Virus record (IMG/VR): IMGVR_UViG_3300042541_004432
Location: 1 to 28,709 of that record
Reading direction: 5' to 3' (one strand)
DNA length: 28,709 bases
DNA from: a virus
Positions 2,270 through 28,709 of this stretch are shown one piece after another; position 1 is the first letter of the stretch; each line of letters begins with the position of its first letter. The notes beneath the pieces were generated by a model. The model was not told the origin of the DNA, did no database searches, and saw only the letters and a list, made by a program, of their open reading frames with translations. Position numbers and translations under genes: made by a program.

Positions 2270-2333
2270 ACTTGGATATTTAGCGGCAATTGCTTGTTGT
2301 GATTATATCATGCTTGATGGCGATTTTTCATCG
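2270..2333. repeat. 64-bp exact inverted copy of protease-gene segment
   Basis: This stretch equals the reverse complement of 10262-10325 at every base. In the source gene the segment encodes about residues 150-170 of the S49-type prohead protease, directly after the catalytic Ser149 codon. Here it is not in a gene. The match stops abruptly at both ends: the base before 2270 differs, and at 2333 it joins the second copied segment. Confidence 0.95.
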
Positions 2334-2391
2334 TTGTTTTCCTGAAGTAGTAAACTCTTTTATTTGATCTATATGCGTAATCTCTTCACCT
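2333..2391. repeat. 59-bp exact direct copy of an early-gene segment
   Basis: This stretch equals 17959-18017 at every base. In the source it encodes residues of the 88-residue small membrane protein (GEEITHIDQIKEFTTSGKQ). The base at 2333 (g) fits both copied segments, so the joint has 1 bp of overlap. The distal end fuses into the 3' end of the small gene downstream of terminase, supplying its last codons in a different frame. Confidence 0.95.
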
Positions 2392-2597: not shown

Positions 2598-4301
2598 TTA
2601 TACAACTTCTGGGCCCATACTTCCTTTAGAAGATTTTTTTCTGAATGAAGCTTTTACCCATTCTGGTCTGAAGAATAAATATTTAACGGCATCACTTAAA
2701 TTTGTTGATGTTATAAGCTTTTTAATGTCTTTTGAGCGTTCAGCTCCTTTATCTTTATAGATCCTTTTCTTTCCTTTTTTGTCTATTCCTTCTTTTGTTT
2801 TGGCGTTTTCCAATGATATTTTTACATTTTTACATCCAAAAATGCATATTTTTAATTGTGGTAAATCTTTATTATCACCACGCATAATATTACGCATTAA
2901 ATTGTATTCCTCTTCTTGAAATATAGTTGCTTGACCTTTACTTATCAATTTTACTTCCCATCCTGTTTTGGTTCCGTCTTGATTATATTCCAAATAGTTT
3001 TGAAGTTCTGTGGCCATATCTCTATTAATATCTTCATATGAATTACCCGAACGATCATAATACATATTAATTTTTTTAAATTTATGATCACAATAGAATG
3101 ATAAAAATTTATTAGCAAGCTCACGCATTCCATGTGGAGGAATAGTATAAAACTCTTTAAATAAATAAGCTGTATTCCCATTTACTTGACCAGTCACCAT
3201 ACTACACATATTACCAAAGTCAATTCCAATGTCTATTGCCTTGGAATGATAAAGATATTTTTGTGCCAACGAACTTTCTTTCCAAACTTCATCCAATGAG
3301 AAATTTTTATAATAATCGGTAATAATTCCGTCATTATAAAAATGATGATCTCCAAGATTTACATAGAAACGTTCCCCTTTTTTTAACTTATTAGGAAATC
3401 CTCCAATAGCTGTTTTGAATTCTTCTGGTCCTAAATCGTCTAATATATCTTTAAACCAATCTACATTTAAGAAATCGGCATTTACATAAGAAGAAACTAC
3501 TTTAAAAAAGGTTAAATTTTTTCTAGCTTTTTTCCAACGCACATCCCATCTAGCTATAGCCTTTTCAATATTCTTTACTTTTTGAGCATTTCCAGCGCGC
3601 TCTTCATTTCTTTTTTCTATTTGAAGTTCATTTATAACTGAGCCTATTTTAAAAGCTAACTCACAACGTTTGGAATCCATTTCAACAGCTCTATCTAAAA
3701 TCCAATCGTGTTCACCTTCTGATGAATTTGGCATATCGGTTGTAAATGTCTTACCACGATAATAAATGGAATTTGAAAATTTTAAAAAACCACGTAAAGC
3801 AGGAGTAAGCTTTTTAATTTTATCAAATGGTAAGTATTTAGTCTCATCACCAAAAATATGTTGGTAGGAATTACCAGCAGCTCCTGAAGCTTGATCCATA
3901 GATATCAAGTTAACAAAACAGCCATTAAAAATAGAAATCGTATGTTTATACTGATTAGGAGCTTTGTATGGTTTAGCAAATGTTATTGGTGGAGCTACGT
4001 CAATTACATAATGAATTCCTTTAACCCATCCTTTTCGCTCAAATCCTTCAAATAGAGCATCTACTATGTTTTTTTTTGCATTTACGTAGGTATCAGCTAC
4101 AATAGCCAAATAAGATCCTGGCATATCATAGCAAACATCGATAAATCTTTCGGCAAGGATATCAGATGTTTTAGCAGAACCCCTACCTGCAATTAGCCAT
4201 AAGTCCTTCGGGCTAATCATATCAACTACCATTCTTATCCAAGTAGCAAAATGTAAACTAGCGTCAGTATCTTTAACGTTTATCGCGGACTTCCTGCTCA
4301 T
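2598..4301 (-). CDS. terL: Terminase large subunit
   Basis: The 567-residue protein is the ATP-driven DNA-packaging motor and headful or site-specific nuclease that docks on the portal. The N-terminal ATPase has a Walker A-type loop AGRGSAKT at 38-45 and a Walker B-like IFGDE at 149-153. The C-terminal RNase H-like nuclease has GIDFG with Asp361 and YYDRSGN with Asp416, and near the end NLSDAVKYLFF. Length and domain order are normal for TerL. The start overlaps the 3' end of the upstream 210-residue gene by 29 bases. It is the last large gene of the packaging operon driven by P2. Confidence 0.93.
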   Translation of the reverse strand: MSRKSAINVKDTDASLHFATWIRMVVDMISPKDLWLIAGRGSAKTSDILAERFIDVCYDMPGSYLAIVADTYVNAKKNIVDALFEGFERKGWVKGIHYVIDVAPPITFAKPYKAPNQYKHTISIFNGCFVNLISMDQASGAAGNSYQHIFGDETKYLPFDKIKKLTPALRGFLKFSNSIYYRGKTFTTDMPNSSEGEHDWILDRAVEMDSKRCELAFKIGSVINELQIEKRNEERAGNAQKVKNIEKAIARWDVRWKKARKNLTFFKVVSSYVNADFLNVDWFKDILDDLGPEEFKTAIGGFPNKLKKGERFYVNLGDHHFYNDGIITDYYKNFSLDEVWKESSLAQKYLYHSKAIDIGIDFGNMCSMVTGQVNGNTAYLFKEFYTIPPHGMRELANKFLSFYCDHKFKKINMYYDRSGNSYEDINRDMATELQNYLEYNQDGTKTGWEVKLISKGQATIFQEEEYNLMRNIMRGDNKDLPQLKICIFGCKNVKISLENAKTKEGIDKKGKKRIYKDKGAERSKDIKKLITSTNLSDAVKYLFFRPEWVKASFRKKSSKGSMGPEVV

Positions 4302-9898: not shown

Positions 9899-10771
9899 TT
9901 ATTTAAATTTGGCTTTCATAGCCAATTCTCTAGCTTTTTGCAAAGCCATTCTGGAATCTCCAATTCCATCAATTAAACCTAATCTTAAGGCTTCTTTTCC
10001 ATAATACACAGCGCCATTTAGAACGCCCGGTTCTTGAATTAGATTAGGTCTTTTTTCAACTACATAATCTTTGAAAGCTATAGCCAATGGAGATAATGCA
10101 TTTTTGATCATTCCTTTGTAATCTCCATTTTTAGCATCCTGAACATCTTTATTTTTGAAATTAGATTCAGGAGGATATATTTCGTGAATTTTAATACCAG
10201 CATCTTCAAGTGCTTTGGTATTATCCCTCAAGGTAGCAACAACACCAATAGAACCAACTCTCGATGAAAAATCGCCATCAAGCATGATATAATCACAACA
10301 AGCAATTGCCGCTAAATATCCAAGTGATAAACCATCGCGAACAAGTCCAACAACTGGTTTAGTTTTATATTTTCCAAATTCTCGAAAATCATCAGCTGCT
10401 TGAGTACTTCCTCCAGGTGAATTGATTTTAAAAATAGTTGCATCTACATTACTCAATTCTTGAGCTTTGAATAATTGATTTACAATTTCATCAGATCCAG
10501 AAACACACATATTTGAATAAGGTAGAATTTCTCCTTGTAACCTTACTTGAGCAATTGCATTTTTAGGAACATTTACTTGTCCATCTTTTGAACTAATAGG
10601 AAATCCAGTAGCGTCAAGTATTTCTAGCGCTTTTTCTTCTACAGAATATTTTGATTGAAAATCAATTCCCATTCTATTACGGAAATTTTCAGCTAACTCA
10701 AAATAAGCCTCTGGATTATCAATTAACCATTGGCCTCTTATTAATTCTGTTATAAATGAATTGTGTTTCAT
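9899..10771 (-). CDS. S49-family (SppA-like) prohead protease
   Basis: The 290-residue protein has the S49 core: INSPGGS at 116-122, the nucleophile region DGLSLGYLAA with Ser149, and GSIGV at 173-177 followed by Lys186 in NTKALEDAGI, the expected general base. Phage members of this family cut scaffold and capsid N-termini during head maturation. That fits the capsid gene 42 bases downstream with a helical N-terminal domain. It is the first gene after late promoter P3. Codons for residues 150-170 were copied as a 64-bp inverted fragment to 2270-2333. Confidence 0.88.
   Translation of the reverse strand: MKHNSFITELIRGQWLIDNPEAYFELAENFRNRMGIDFQSKYSVEEKALEILDATGFPISSKDGQVNVPKNAIAQVRLQGEILPYSNMCVSGSDEIVNQLFKAQELSNVDATIFKINSPGGSTQAADDFREFGKYKTKPVVGLVRDGLSLGYLAAIACCDYIMLDGDFSSRVGSIGVVATLRDNTKALEDAGIKIHEIYPPESNFKNKDVQDAKNGDYKGMIKNALSPLAIAFKDYVVEKRPNLIQEPGVLNGAVYYGKEALRLGLIDGIGDSRMALQKARELAMKAKFK
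10262..10325. repeat. Source of the 64-bp inverted copy at 2270
   Basis: This segment lies inside the protease coding sequence. It is identical, in reverse complement, to 2270-2333. Because it is in frame in an intact gene here and orphaned there, this is the source and the other is the copy. Recombination between the two copies would invert the 8 kb between them, including capsid and terminase. Confidence 0.95.
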
Positions 10772-12569: not shown

Positions 12570-13817
12570 TTAATTTAAAGCTTGAGTGATTTCAATAGGT
12601 CTAATTTCGTTTATTAAATCCCATACAACCTGAGCTTCTTGATAATAACCTAAATAGTTCCGATGTTCTTCGTTACCATCATCAGTACTAAATTCAGTTA
12701 CCGGGTAGTAATACACCAGCCCTTGGTTATCTAAATTAATTTTAGTTTGATTTATTGCTGTATCAAAACTTTGTTCTAATTCTGTCCCGTGAACATTTAT
12801 TCCAGAAAAAATAAAAGGCACATTTTGCCCTAATTTATTTTTCCAATAATTTAAAAATTGAATTTGACGACTAGTATATAAATTGACAGAAGACAATGAA
12901 GTAGAATCTCCTTCACCTTGAGTCCAACGCACCCAGATATAAGGGCGTTTACCTTGTGTTATAAGTTGGTTTATTGCTGTGGTTACTGCTGTATTGGTGG
13001 TTAGAAACACGCTTCCTGACGGAGGAAGATGCTTAGCTATTGCAGTACCAGATTTACCACAATTGATGTAGTAAAATTGTCTGTTTAATTTAAAATAAAG
13101 TTTTTGAAATGTTAAATTTATTCCGTGCATTCCAAATGCATTGCCATCAATAAACTGATTTTGAAAAGAATTATTTGTAAAATTCCACTCTTTAATAATT
13201 CCAGAACGTTGACGTTCACTTTTGTAACTTCCCCCTGTTTTATTATTGCTAGCTCCAGCGCAATTAGATTGCCCAAAGTCTAGCAAAACTAATGCTGCAT
13301 TTTCAGGTAGTTCGTCAGACCAATTGTTTTCTTTTATTAAGCCATAAGGCTGTAAATAATCAACTGTAACTCCTTTATTGATTTGCAACATCCCTTTATC
13401 AAAACTGTTACCAGCTGGCGCATTTCCGACCGTAAACCTTGCATAAACTTCATTTGATGTAGTTGTGAAAGTTCCATTTGTAACTGCTCCAAGTGAACGT
13501 ACCTTAACGTAGTCAGAGTTATATATACAATTATAATTACCAAGGGCTTTTGCGCCAGAGTAAGAATATGTTGTATTTGGATCTAATTTTATAAAATCAG
13601 TACTACAGTTACCTATAGATGATATCATATACCCCTGTAAATTAATAGCTGTGTTTTCTACTACAGTTTCTTTGTTATAAATATTAGATGTGATGATTGA
13701 ATTATCAATTGCTAATCTTGCAAATTGATTTTCATAATTATTGCTTAATTTTCTTTCCGGTGACTTATCACAAGAAAATAGTAAGATTGAAATAGATAGT
13801 AAAAAAAGTTTTTTCAT
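12570..13817 (-). CDS. Lipoprotein SGNH-type esterase (sialate O-acetylesterase-like)
   Basis: The 415-residue protein starts with a lipoprotein signal: MKKLFLLSISILLFSC, lipidated Cys16. An N-terminal beta region (about 45-160) ends in TVDYLQPYG, a phrase common in phage tail proteins. The catalytic domain follows, with GQSN at 182-185 (nucleophile Ser184), GKSG at 254-257, WTQGEGDS at 298-305 and DDGNEEH at 379-385, giving the Asp/His partner. This layout matches carbohydrate acetylesterases that deacetylate surface glycans. It sits 2 bases after the tail-fibre gene. A lipid-anchored version is odd for a virion protein; it may instead alter the lysogen's or infected cell's surface glycan to block other phages. 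Confidence 0.78.
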   Translation of the reverse strand: MKKLFLLSISILLFSCDKSPERKLSNNYENQFARLAIDNSIITSNIYNKETVVENTAINLQGYMISSIGNCSTDFIKLDPNTTYSYSGAKALGNYNCIYNSDYVKVRSLGAVTNGTFTTTSNEVYARFTVGNAPAGNSFDKGMLQINKGVTVDYLQPYGLIKENNWSDELPENAALVLLDFGQSNCAGASNNKTGGSYKSERQRSGIIKEWNFTNNSFQNQFIDGNAFGMHGINLTFQKLYFKLNRQFYYINCGKSGTAIAKHLPPSGSVFLTTNTAVTTAINQLITQGKRPYIWVRWTQGEGDSTSLSSVNLYTSRQIQFLNYWKNKLGQNVPFIFSGINVHGTELEQSFDTAINQTKINLDNQGLVYYYPVTEFSTDDGNEEHRNYLGYYQEAQVVWDLINEIRPIEITQALN

Positions 13818-15149: not shown

Positions 15150-15668
15150 TTATAGATTAATTTGATACGAAAGTAACAAATTTTAATATATATATAAAAT
15201 AAAATTAAAGTTTTTTAATATATATGTAAACTATTTAAAATACTTAAAAAGTCACTATTTTTTTGTAATTCTGTAATTTTAGTAAAAAACATAGCGTAAA
15301 ACCTTATAAACATTGACTTTTTAAAATACATTGATTTTGTAATTCAGAAGCTTTAAGAAAAAGTAATTTTGTACGCTCTTATTTAATTACATTTTTTTTG
15401 TAATTTATATTACAAAATTACAACTTAAATGTAATTAAATTTATTAGTGTTTACAGCACATTCGAGCATATATTACAAAATTACATTTTTTATATGTCTT
15501 TTCTTAAAATAAGGGAGTAGGGAGAATGTAAAGCGCATATGAGCGCCGATTTATCTCTTAGCCATATCTAAATATTATCTTGGTAGAAAATGGTTGATGT
15601 GATGTTATTTAAACAGAAAAAGCCACTCGTGAGTGGCTTAAATCAGTTTTGTTTTAAAAATACTTTAC
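15150..15668. promoter_or_regulatory. AT-rich control region with TGTAATT/AATTACA repeats
   Basis: No gene is supported. The stretch 15258-15485 has many copies of TGTAATT or its complement. A 17-bp direct repeat TATATTACAAAATTACA occurs at 15406-15422 and 15469-15485, and TGTAATTCTGTAATTTT lies near 15263-15279. The copies face both ways and form partial dyads, as in operator arrays or replication iterons. The region separates the early block (methyltransferase end) from the first late genes, so a late-promoter control or origin role is plausible. Confidence 0.5.
15616..15640 (-). terminator. Terminator after the methyltransferase operon
   Basis: A 9-bp stem AAGCCACTC / GAGTGGCTT with a 2-base centre is followed on the minus strand by TTTTC. 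It lies 29 bases after the methyltransferase stop and closes the long early transcript. Confidence 0.8.
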
Positions 15669-17163: not shown

Positions 17164-17808
17164 CTAAATAAAATTATCTGGTTTTTCTATTTTCTCAAAT
17201 TCGATTACCCAAACCCATGGATTTGAATCTATAGATCCTTTTCCGTTTATAGACTCCCACAAACTTTTAAATGACTCAATAGGATAAAGAGATCCTCTTC
17301 CATGATTGATATAATTTTTAAACATGCATTGTTTAATATCATTATGAATCCAGGTCATTTCTATTCCTTCAGCAATTGCATCACTTTCGGAAATATCCTG
17401 AAGACGTTCTACAGTTACTGATTTTATCTGAAGGAAAATTATACAAGCTTTTTTAGGCATAAATATTGAAGGCTTCCATTTATCAGATAAATTGATTTTT
17501 TCAATAGATTTATACTCATATCTTGGTTCACCATAGTCTTGTTCTATTTCTCTAAAAGTTTCGCGAACCCAAAGGATGTCGCCTACATTACCATATGGAC
17601 AGAACTTGTGAATCGTTTCTACCCAATGTCCCTTCCACATACGGGCAAATACATGGGTATTTGATAATCCATCCGGAATACCTTGGTAAACATATTTTGA
17701 TTCCAAAAGATCTTCTAACCCTTTAGTTCTACGAGTTTTTGTTTTAATACCGTTTATTATAGACTTTACCATATCGGTAGAGAATAAAATTGGTTTAATT
17801 TTTACCAT
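17164..17808 (-). CDS. ASCH-domain (PUA-like) phage protein
   Basis: The 214-residue protein has the phage ASCH pattern: KPILFSTDMVKSIINGIKTK followed by TRR, then CPYGNVGDILWVRETF, KWKPSIFMPKKA, VERLQDISESDAIAEGI and NPWVWVIEFEKI. ASCH domains are PUA-like folds related to readers of modified bases and to RNA-binding domains. It sits immediately upstream of the cytosine methyltransferase, and its start overlaps the small membrane-protein gene by 14 bases. A role in sensing modified or unmodified nucleic acid is an inference from fold and neighbour. Confidence 0.8.
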   Translation of the reverse strand: MVKIKPILFSTDMVKSIINGIKTKTRRTKGLEDLLESKYVYQGIPDGLSNTHVFARMWKGHWVETIHKFCPYGNVGDILWVRETFREIEQDYGEPRYEYKSIEKINLSDKWKPSIFMPKKACIIFLQIKSVTVERLQDISESDAIAEGIEMTWIHNDIKQCMFKNYINHGRGSLYPIESFKSLWESINGKGSIDSNPWVWVIEFEKIEKPDNFI

Positions 17809-18061
17809 ATGAAAAAAATATTACGAAGAAAATTGTTATTGCTATAGATGTAAAAATGCAGCCTTTTAGGAAGTACTCTTTTTTTTCACCAGCAGAAAAA
17901 TGTTTCAAGCCTGTGAGTTCTAGTTTCTTTAAAAAATATGTTTCACAAATATTTTCTAGTTGTTTTCCTGAAGTAGTAAACTCTTTTATTTGATCTATAT
18001 GCGTAATCTCTTCACCTATGAATTCTTTCATAGTATTGAAAAATATTTGATTTTTTCTCAT
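17795..18061 (-). CDS. Small single-span membrane protein
   Basis: The 88-residue protein has a soluble helical N-terminal part (about 1-60) and a strongly hydrophobic C-terminal segment GCIFTSIAITIFFVIFFSY (about 67-85), so it is probably tail-anchored. Its function is unknown; small phage membrane proteins in early operons often serve superinfection exclusion or host takeover. Codons for GEEITHIDQIKEFTTSGKQ were copied as a 59-bp segment to 2333-2391. Confidence 0.65.
   Translation of the reverse strand: MRKNQIFFNTMKEFIGEEITHIDQIKEFTTSGKQLENICETYFLKKLELTGLKHFSAGEKKEYFLKGCIFTSIAITIFFVIFFSYGKN
17959..18017. repeat. Source of the 59-bp direct copy at 2333
   Basis: This segment lies inside the small membrane-protein gene and is identical to 2333-2391 in the same orientation. 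The intact reading frame here marks it as the source. Recombination between the two direct copies would delete 15.6 kb, including all structural genes between them. Confidence 0.95.
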
Positions 18062-23848: not shown

Positions 23849-23857
23849 ATATATTAT

Positions 23858-23873
23858 TTAATATATATATTAA
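23858..23873. promoter_or_regulatory. Candidate operator palindrome between repressor and early genes
   Basis: TTAATATATATATTAA is a perfect 16-bp palindrome just upstream of the early -7 element, in the divergent intergenic region. Its position suits a repressor binding site, but AT-only palindromes are common in this DNA. Confidence 0.35.
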
Positions 23874-23932
23874 TTTAATGTGTAATTTTTTAATCTATAT
23901 GTTTAATTTATATTAATTATAAATAATAAGTT

Positions 23933-25645: not shown

Positions 25646-27481
25646 TTAGAAAGCAACTGTATCTAAATCTATTTCAAAAATATCAGGCTTGATTTCCGTT
25701 CGATTGATTGTTTTTACAACATGATATCTATTGTATGCATAAATATTATTATCAATACTTATACCTTTTATATCCAAAAAGTGAGCTTTAAATTGCCATT
25801 TAAAAGGAATTGCAAATATTCTGAATTCGTCCCACTTTTGCCAATACTCAGGAAAAATTGCGGGTATTAAAATATCATCATTGCTTATGGACAAATTTTG
25901 TCCGTTAAAAAGCCCTTCGTATTTAACAACAAACATTTTAGAACTATCATCGATAAAAGCATAAGCAGTTTCAATATTGTTTCTTTCATATTGTGGTAAT
26001 GGTAATGCTGGAATTTCAATTGTTGTAGTTTTATCATTTGTTTGGTAACCTGTATCTACAAATCCTGATGCATTAATAAATATTGGTTTGTAAATAAATT
26101 TAGTTGAGTCTATATCTGAAAATTTATGTAGAAAAGAATAACCTTTTTGTGGGCGACGGCTTGGTTCGGGAATTTCATAATCTTGCAATGAAATTGCGTT
26201 GGGTATATCAATTCCATCAGTAACTTTATTCATATAAACAAAATTATCTTTTACAAAGAAATTGTAGTTCAACCATTTTTTTGTAATATCTACAAGATTG
26301 CCGTAGGTCATGTCTGGAACCGCTTTTGTTAAATCAATTTTTGGTTCATTCCATACGGTAGGAATTATGTCATCGTTTAAATCATAAAATTGAAAAGGCA
26401 TTATTGACAAATCACAAATTATACGTGGATCGTTAGTTATTCTTTGATTAGATGTAGCTGTTATGGTATGAGTACCTGGTTCTAAAATAAGAATATAGTC
26501 ATCAAATGTAAACTCATGGGTAACAGATTGAGGTATCGGATAAGATGGAAGTATATCCTCATATATAACTGCTCCATCTATTAATAAATAAAAATTTGAA
26601 GGAGAATCACTCATTGGAGCTATATGACCATTTCCATTAATATAAAATTTTATTTTTCTATTAATAGTAATTACAATTGATTTGTTCCAACTTCCCATAA
26701 AAAGGTCAAAATGTTGAACACTATTATAATATTCTTCATCCATTAAAGTTAGATCATAAGAATCGTATATTAAATTTGTAAAATAATCTCCTGGATTTAA
26801 AACATATCTATTCAAAAGTTTTGATTCATTTAAAATATCACCTGCCAATTGATAACCTTCATCTATAACTCCTTGTTTTAATAGATACAACCAATTTGGT
26901 AATGGAACAATAATATTTCTATTATCATAAACTTCCTCTTCTGAATTCCATGTATTTTCTAAAAAAACACCATTAACTCTATTATTCAAAATTTGCTGAA
27001 AAGAAGCAAATAGATTATCATCTTGAGAATATTTATCTGTATGTATTTGTGGAAAAACAAAATTTGTTTGAGGATAAGTTTGACCAACCATATTATTAGC
27101 ATATTCATATAAACTCACGCCATTTGGTAAATTAAACTTTTCAAGTTTTAATTCTGATAATTTTTTATCCCATGAAGGAAATTGTTCCAAACCAAATTCT
27201 AAAGTGCATGATAATTTTAAACCAGTAATTTCTATGATTTCAAGTTTTGCCTTTTCTATTTTATCATGATGATGGTACCATCCATCAAATAAAGTTTCGA
27301 AAGTGGTATTATATTGCGATATAAATCCAGAAGCAATATCTAAATCATCCGTAAGATATATATCAAATGGATAGGTTATTTTAGAAGAAAATGATTCCTG
27401 AAATGAGGAATTATTTTCTACATCTGAAATTCCGAAAAGAGATAAATCCAATTCAAAATTAGAAGTGATAAACTTTCTCAT
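25646..27481 (-). CDS. Tail-tip or baseplate protein
   Basis: The 611-residue protein begins MRKFITSNFELDLSLFGISD and is rich in aromatic and Asn residues, with FDGWYHHHDKIEKAKLEIIE in the first 90 residues. A central beta-rich domain (about 260-360: SIVITINRKIKFYINGNGHI, later SVTHEFTFDDYILILEPGTH) resembles a carbohydrate-binding sandwich. It is the last gene of the tail operon, in front of the bidirectional terminator, and overlaps the upstream tail gene by 23 bases. A role in the baseplate or host-surface contact fits; no enzyme motif is seen. Confidence 0.6.
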   Translation of the reverse strand: MRKFITSNFELDLSLFGISDVENNSSFQESFSSKITYPFDIYLTDDLDIASGFISQYNTTFETLFDGWYHHHDKIEKAKLEIIEITGLKLSCTLEFGLEQFPSWDKKLSELKLEKFNLPNGVSLYEYANNMVGQTYPQTNFVFPQIHTDKYSQDDNLFASFQQILNNRVNGVFLENTWNSEEEVYDNRNIIVPLPNWLYLLKQGVIDEGYQLAGDILNESKLLNRYVLNPGDYFTNLIYDSYDLTLMDEEYYNSVQHFDLFMGSWNKSIVITINRKIKFYINGNGHIAPMSDSPSNFYLLIDGAVIYEDILPSYPIPQSVTHEFTFDDYILILEPGTHTITATSNQRITNDPRIICDLSIMPFQFYDLNDDIIPTVWNEPKIDLTKAVPDMTYGNLVDITKKWLNYNFFVKDNFVYMNKVTDGIDIPNAISLQDYEIPEPSRRPQKGYSFLHKFSDIDSTKFIYKPIFINASGFVDTGYQTNDKTTTIEIPALPLPQYERNNIETAYAFIDDSSKMFVVKYEGLFNGQNLSISNDDILIPAIFPEYWQKWDEFRIFAIPFKWQFKAHFLDIKGISIDNNIYAYNRYHVVKTINRTEIKPDIFEIDLDTVAF

Positions 27482-28709
27482 TGTAGTCTTTGTTTATTAT
27501 GAATTCTAAATTATATTCGATTAATTCCCTTTCAGAGTCTTCATCAATTTTTGATTTAGTTTGTGGCACTAAATTAATTTGTCCGTCATCCGTAATTAAA
27601 ACTACTTTTTTGGACATCAATAACGAATCTACATCATCGATGGTACTTTTACTTATCCAACCAGTGGATATTTTTAAAGTTAAATTTCGCTCTACTTTCA
27701 AAGTTTGAAGGCATTTTACTAAATTTCTTTGAAAAGTATTCAAAGTGTATTCATATTCTGGCCCCAGTGAATAACCTCCAGTAAGTTCCAATGATGATTG
27801 GAGTAAATATTCATTTTCCCAAACAATCATATTTGAAAAGGGACCTTGTGGAAAAACTAAGAATTTTTGTTCTCTAAATTCCGCCGTTTCAAGAGAAATG
27901 AGTTTGTAAGTAATAATATCTCCCTGCTGATAATCTTCAAAAGTCACTTTTTTACAAATAATCCAACCATCATCAGCAAGTAATGAAATTATATTAACAA
28001 TATAATCATTTTGATAAATTTCAAGGTCATAGCCATTTGTTTTTATAACATCTGAATTTTCGGTTTTTATGTTTAGATAAGCAAACGAGTTAATAGTTAC
28101 TCTAGTTGGTTGCTGATTAAATTTTAGAAATCCGAATTTATCAAACCCATTTTCCAAACCTGCAATAAAATTAATTGAAGGTACTGTAATATCACGAATC
28201 ATTGCGCTAGTTGCTAAATTGTTTTCAGAGATATAAACTGATACTGAAGATGGTAAATATTGATTTAATGATTCATTGAAATTATTGAATCGACTCATTA
28301 TTTTATGAATAAGCAACCCGATGTTCAATTTTCCTTTTTGATTAAAAGGAATTAGTTTCTCTTTTATTTTATGATTAACATAAGTTTGTGAAAAATAGTC
28401 ATATACTTTGGCCAATATGGTTATATCAAAATAGGTATTTATTGATGTCGTTGAAAAGCCTAAAAATTTCGGATCTAACGTAAAAGCAAAATTATTTTGA
28501 TACGGTAAACTTATAAAATCAAGAAGATTATACGTTACTGAAATAGTTCGTGTGGATACTTGTCCATTTATTGTGGCAGTTAATACTACATTACCAGTAT
28601 AAACTCCTGGGCTTAAATTAGCAAATGGAATTGGTTTAACTACAACAACCGTTTGATTAGTTTGTTGAATGATTATAGTTTGTAAACTACAATTTAACCA
28701 ATACGGATA
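27459..28709 (-). CDS. Large tail protein with Ig/BACON-like domain, 5' end cut by window edge
   Basis: The minus-strand frame has no stop from the right edge to the stop at 27459, giving 416 visible residues. A start at 28415 would be a TTG inside continuous coding sequence and is not credible. The first visible part (residues about 10-55) reads like an Ig/BACON beta-sandwich: PIPFANLSPGVYTGNVVLTA, then TISVTYNL. The rest is beta-rich with no known motif. It precedes the tail-tip gene with a 23-base overlap. It is likely a tail-tip or fibre-like protein; BACON-like domains are glycan-binding in other proteins. Confidence 0.65.
   Translation of the reverse strand, partial: YPYWLNCSLQTIIIQQTNQTVVVVKPIPFANLSPGVYTGNVVLTATINGQVSTRTISVTYNLLDFISLPYQNNFAFTLDPKFLGFSTTSINTYFDITILAKVYDYFSQTYVNHKIKEKLIPFNQKGKLNIGLLIHKIMSRFNNFNESLNQYLPSSVSVYISENNLATSAMIRDITVPSINFIAGLENGFDKFGFLKFNQQPTRVTINSFAYLNIKTENSDVIKTNGYDLEIYQNDYIVNIISLLADDGWIICKKVTFEDYQQGDIITYKLISLETAEFREQKFLVFPQGPFSNMIVWENEYLLQSSLELTGGYSLGPEYEYTLNTFQRNLVKCLQTLKVERNLTLKISTGWISKSTIDDVDSLLMSKKVVLITDDGQINLVPQTKSKIDEDSERELIEYNLEFIINKDYNEKVYHF

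Follow-up and report, generated by a model that had tools for sequence, protein, structure and literature searches.

Template switching during lac amplification in E. coli leaves complex junctions with short microhomology and paired inverted switches (PMC3161906), and a model of microhomology-mediated break-induced replication (MMBIR) has been published (PMC2621351). Templated insertions are also found at eukaryotic polymerase-theta end-joining scars (e.g., PMC5068794). We analyzed a 122-bp scar located at positions 2270 to 2391 of a viral sequence (IMG/VR record IMGVR_UViG_3300042541_004432, a contig classed as linear), which was investigated over its whole length of 28,709 bp and is referred to below as the window. 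Like MMBIR and long-distance template switching in general, the scar combines complex junctions, copied pieces, possible microhomology of a few bp, paired inverted switches and a deletion. Unlike the E. coli events, which are duplications and inversions on the kb scale, it contains inserts of about 60 bp that stem from two distant phage loci and are found in a phage genome.

Scars made by polymerase theta consist of a deletion and a copied filler with microhomology, the templates usually lying beside the break. The scar in the window likewise joins a deletion with copied filler but differs in its templates, which are 8-16 kb away; polymerase theta is not known from bacteria. Short-patch double illegitimate recombination, reported by Harms et al. 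in PNAS in 2016, reportedly generates single short intragenomic patches with little net loss. This process resembles the scar in that short intragenomic segments replace sequence and are joined at microhomologies, whereas the scar consists of two patches and comes with a net loss of 1.4-2.1 kb. It does not have the single patch replacing a similar length that is reported for short-patch events. The scar is best classed with deletions that carry templated filler, a type of rearrangement already known; in a partial paper collection, no phage example described in these terms was found by title or abstract.

The phage and the locus

The sequence of the window marks it as part of a temperate, Flavobacterium-type phage of the Duneviridae kind, close to phages 1H, 2A and 6H. 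Its left part shows about 71% nucleotide identity to these Flavobacterium psychrophilum phages, and a tyrosine integrase is encoded in the window; in a genome scan the closest relative was no better than 52%. Comparison of the gene order with 6H suggests that a stretch is absent between tail-position genes at the right end of the record (25646-28709) and the portal-position gene at its left end, corresponding to roughly 8-14 kb in 6H, and that the contig is a piece of a circularly arranged map.

The scar is located between a gene on the '+' strand (1763-2179) and a gene on the '-' strand (2598-4301), just past a hairpin (2188-2217). The '+' gene, which forms the intact left flank, is a conserved 138-aa phage gene (phrog_19224, E 7e-39), and its homologues adjoin the scar site in many relatives. 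The hairpin is native and resembles a bidirectional terminator (MFE -18.7 and -15.9 kcal/mol, z -5.5 and -4.7 for the two strands); it is kept in relatives and has the identical sequence in L058, one of the related loci used for comparison. The intact right flank is formed by the '-' gene, which occupies the position of the large terminase and shows 70-75% aa identity to Flavobacterium phage 1H-type records and to L058. Pfam and PHROG profile searches with this gene gave no hit, and its name is taken from gene order and from the sequence as read.

The scar consists of two exact copies

The first 64 nt of the scar (2270-2333) are the reverse complement of 10262-10325 (64/64 nt, 100%), and the remaining part (2333-2391) is a direct copy of 17959-18017 (59/59 nt, 100%). 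The two copies overlap by one base at 2333, resulting in a total of 122 bp, and besides these two donors the scar matches nothing else in the record. Comparison of the sequences confirmed the inverted and the direct perfect copy, with 1 bp shared, exactly where the first-pass annotation had placed them. As a control, 122-bp pieces were drawn at random from the window, about 200 in all; their longest exact repeat elsewhere had a median of 12 and a maximum of 17 bp, which excludes chance for both copies. The patches were also considered as part of a CRISPR array, a reading that was set aside as no repeat unit is present beside them.

Filler 1 (2270-2333, '+' strand) contains codons 149-170 of an S49 head-maturation protease. 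Its donor (10262-10325, '-' strand) lies inside the protease gene (9899-10771; Pfam PF01343, 1e-12; phrog_53, 2e-41), homologues of which are present in the terminase-centred loci of relatives, while a scan with the protease itself as query matched no stretch. The copy begins at the third base of codon 149, which encodes the Ser of DGLSLGYLAA, in agreement with the earlier statement that it starts right after the serine. Filler 2 (2333-2391, '+' strand) stems from the inside of an 88-aa gene on the '-' strand (17795-18061; donor 17959-18017, '+' strand), for which no relatives were found in viral_contigs or among the loci compared. Because the ORF around this donor is intact and overlaps the adjacent one, we take 17959-18017 to be the original copy. 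The inserts were copied from the same genome, as expected for template switching, and both donors are still present in the record, within intact ORFs.

No differences were found over the 122 bp; if the event is real, its age would correspond to no more than roughly 2.4% neutral divergence (an estimate, 3/122). A fairly recent event fits these data, whereas the "very recent" one proposed earlier does not necessarily follow from 0/122.

The scar lies at a deletion relative to related phages

Alignment with L058, 1H, L006 and L008 showed that the sequence directly upstream of the scar (2243-2269, '+' strand) corresponds to the first nine codons, MKRKNLESK, of a truncated gene homologous to 1H gp11 and to a 73-aa gene of L058 (13613-13392), in which the counterpart reads MKRNNLHAE. 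A profile search assigned 1H gp11 to phrog_21262, and a gp11-type gene of about 75 aa following the '+' gene is conserved in more than 20 relatives. In the window, codon 9 is the last to match gp11, and the homology breaks off at 2269/2270. To the right of the scar, about 58 codons from the 5' end of a small gene are left at 2392-2566 ('-' strand), which makes it truncated in comparison to homologues of about 90 aa (tblastn 48% for L058, 55% for L086 and 40% for L067). In these three relatives the gene of about 90 aa is encoded right after the terminase-position gene. Here, its homology stops after HFEAMKRIQ, at 2391/2392, and the filler appends VKRLRI and a stop codon to the truncated gene.

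Between the same two points, alignment coordinates give distances of 1371 bp in L058, about 1930 bp in L086 and about 2070 bp in L067, versus 122 bp in the window. Measured against these relatives, which have about 70% identical flanking DNA and are not sister phages, the scar replaces a deleted segment of about 1.4-2.1 kb and truncates two genes. The segment of about 1930 bp in L086 includes a SymE-like gene, and in 1H, 2A and 6H this place is occupied instead by gp11, a SymE-like gene and a DUF932 gene. Since the gene content differs here, the locus is a site of accessory gene exchange. The flanks are colinear with the relatives, and the scar passes through three junctions before it returns to the colinear flank, the arrangement that template switching predicts. 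Because the patch fills a deletion, a pure insertion or a regulatory element is unlikely. The patchwork reading of the first-pass annotation thus stands as far as the templated copies are concerned; the deletion under the patch, which truncates two genes, had been overlooked. A third source had been suspected in 2218-2269. This stretch is native and homologous to the relatives, and there is therefore no third donor.

The same donor-donor junction was found in none of the other viral_contigs contigs, a comparison that near-identical records may escape. Likewise, no comparable patchwork of this kind was detected in 87 sequences (1.4 Mb including the window). Other long repeats in these sequences were clustered or multiple (L009, L010, L071), isolated and short (L014, L045, L084) or a 384-bp duplication (L087). 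The latter is located in phage 6H and is an exact direct duplication (34959-35342 and 37343-37726) with starts about 2.4 kb apart.

Junctions and proposed mechanism

At the left join, native sequence ending in ..CCAAA meets a donor reading ..TATC and then ACTTGG, with 0-1 bp shared, and at the middle join a single base (G) is shared. At the right join the overlap is CCT (2389-2391), that is 3 bp if the native continuation resembled L058, which reads ..ATCCAGGAT.. at this position; these three bases of filler 2 are probably common to the native right flank too. In addition, both partners contain GAATTC close to the right join, shifted by 2 nt against each other. Since overlaps of 0-1 bp do not exceed what chance would give, microhomology is weak evidence except at the right join. 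Followed from the left, the first two jumps are inverted (7.9 kb and about 7.7 kb) and the third is direct, leading back to the start over about 15.6 kb.

We consider it likely that the scar reflects a recent and real deletion in a Duneviridae-like Flavobacterium phage, which was closed by microhomology-guided template switching. Within the homologue of 1H gp11, replication would have stalled or broken, after which the 3' end would have used the opposite strand of the protease region, about 8 kb away, as template for about 64 nt. With a second inverted switch, over about 7.7 kb, about 59 nt of the 88-aa gene would have been copied. Synthesis would then have resumed at the original locus, with its direction restored, through AGG/CCT microhomology within the 90-aa gene. 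The loss would amount to about 1.4-2.1 kb and include the 3' ends of the two genes together with everything in between. This order of the switches is inferred, and the join would be present in the living phage. A single process, repeated template switching, would account for the copied pieces and their orientations as well as for the colinear return and the net loss of sequence. The earlier proposal of template switching or templated joining is compatible with the evidence.

Alternatively, the join could be a chimera generated by template switching during MDA or PCR before sequencing, the phage itself being intact at this site. MDA chimeras are mostly inverted and span less than 10 kb (337/475), show 2-21 nt of complementarity and arise about once per 22 kb (PMC1855051). 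Two of the three scar jumps are inverted and shorter than 10 kb, like the commonest form of these chimeras; an amplification chimera would also give perfect identity, and the scar is known from one record only. However, three jumps within 122 bp that end at the locus of departure with the direction restored are very unlikely at about one per 22 kb, and a chimera would have to dominate the assembly. The lack of a similar patchwork in the 87 sequences also speaks against it, though these come from other libraries. Altogether, we regard an amplification chimera as unlikely.

A real event could also have taken another route, in which two loose double-stranded phage DNA fragments of about 60 bp (e.g., nuclease debris) were captured at a double-strand break by end joining. 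Ligation of fragments also fits two unrelated donors of similar size, both orientations and overlaps of 0-3 bp; however, it requires three separate ligations and two free fragments, and a microhomology of 3 bp, as at the right join, would be expected rather from annealing and extension. Capture of fragments is therefore improbable.

An origin in the assembly itself was raised in the first-pass annotation together with amplification. De Bruijn and overlap assemblers join at shared sequence, whereas the partners here share 0-3 bp and have no overlap to collapse. A misjoin at a repeat, which would call for sharing of k-mer or overlap length at the joins, is therefore unlikely, and the joins must, by this reasoning, have been in the sequenced molecules. 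Of the two suggested artefacts, the amplification chimera keeps some ground, with two jumps inverted and below 10 kb.

Possible function of the scar

No sign of a function was found for the scar when promoters, RNA folds and counterparts in the relatives examined were considered. Promoters in Bacteroidetes follow the consensus TTG-N17-23-TAnnTTTG, and no promoter of this type was detected at 1501-2700 on either strand. The RNA of the scar folds no better than shuffled sequence (z 0.46).

The patch could in principle be a selected regulatory element, with late '-' transcripts that run through the small gene to the terminator (2217-2188) carrying 64 nt of protease antisense; orientation and terminator placement permit such read-through antisense to the protease message, but with no promoter in the searched region, no structure beyond chance, no counterpart in relatives and a protease copy that spans mid-gene codons and not the start site, this is very improbable. 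By geometry only, a '-' read-through transcript would be antisense to the protease over 64 nt, and antisense to the 88-aa gene would come from '+' transcripts. The antisense RNA proposed earlier draws on this geometry and gained no positive support. We give equally little credence to the idea that the scar acts as a self-antisense 3' end on late messages, with 64 nt complementary to the phage's own protease coding region; if true, such an end could reduce expression of the protease or of downstream late genes. The scar is probably without a function of its own, and the deletion, which is most likely real, is probably neutral or slightly harmful.

If confirmed by reads, the locus would offer a clean phage example of a templated deletion scar with several switches. 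It would also illustrate one route to the loss of accessory gene cassettes next to the terminase gene without homologous recombination.

Other features of the window

A near-perfect inverted repeat is located between genes at 15381-15440; its two 26-nt arms are 88% identical and separated by an 8-nt loop, and it is possibly a bidirectional terminator. An AT-rich direct repeat (15182-15227 and 23857-23902, 80% over 46 nt) has both copies between ORFs and may be regulatory or due to chance. In the late region, a 415-aa ORF on the '-' strand (12570-13817) carries a lipoprotein-like signal (MKKLFLLSISILLFSC) and is possibly an accessory gene.
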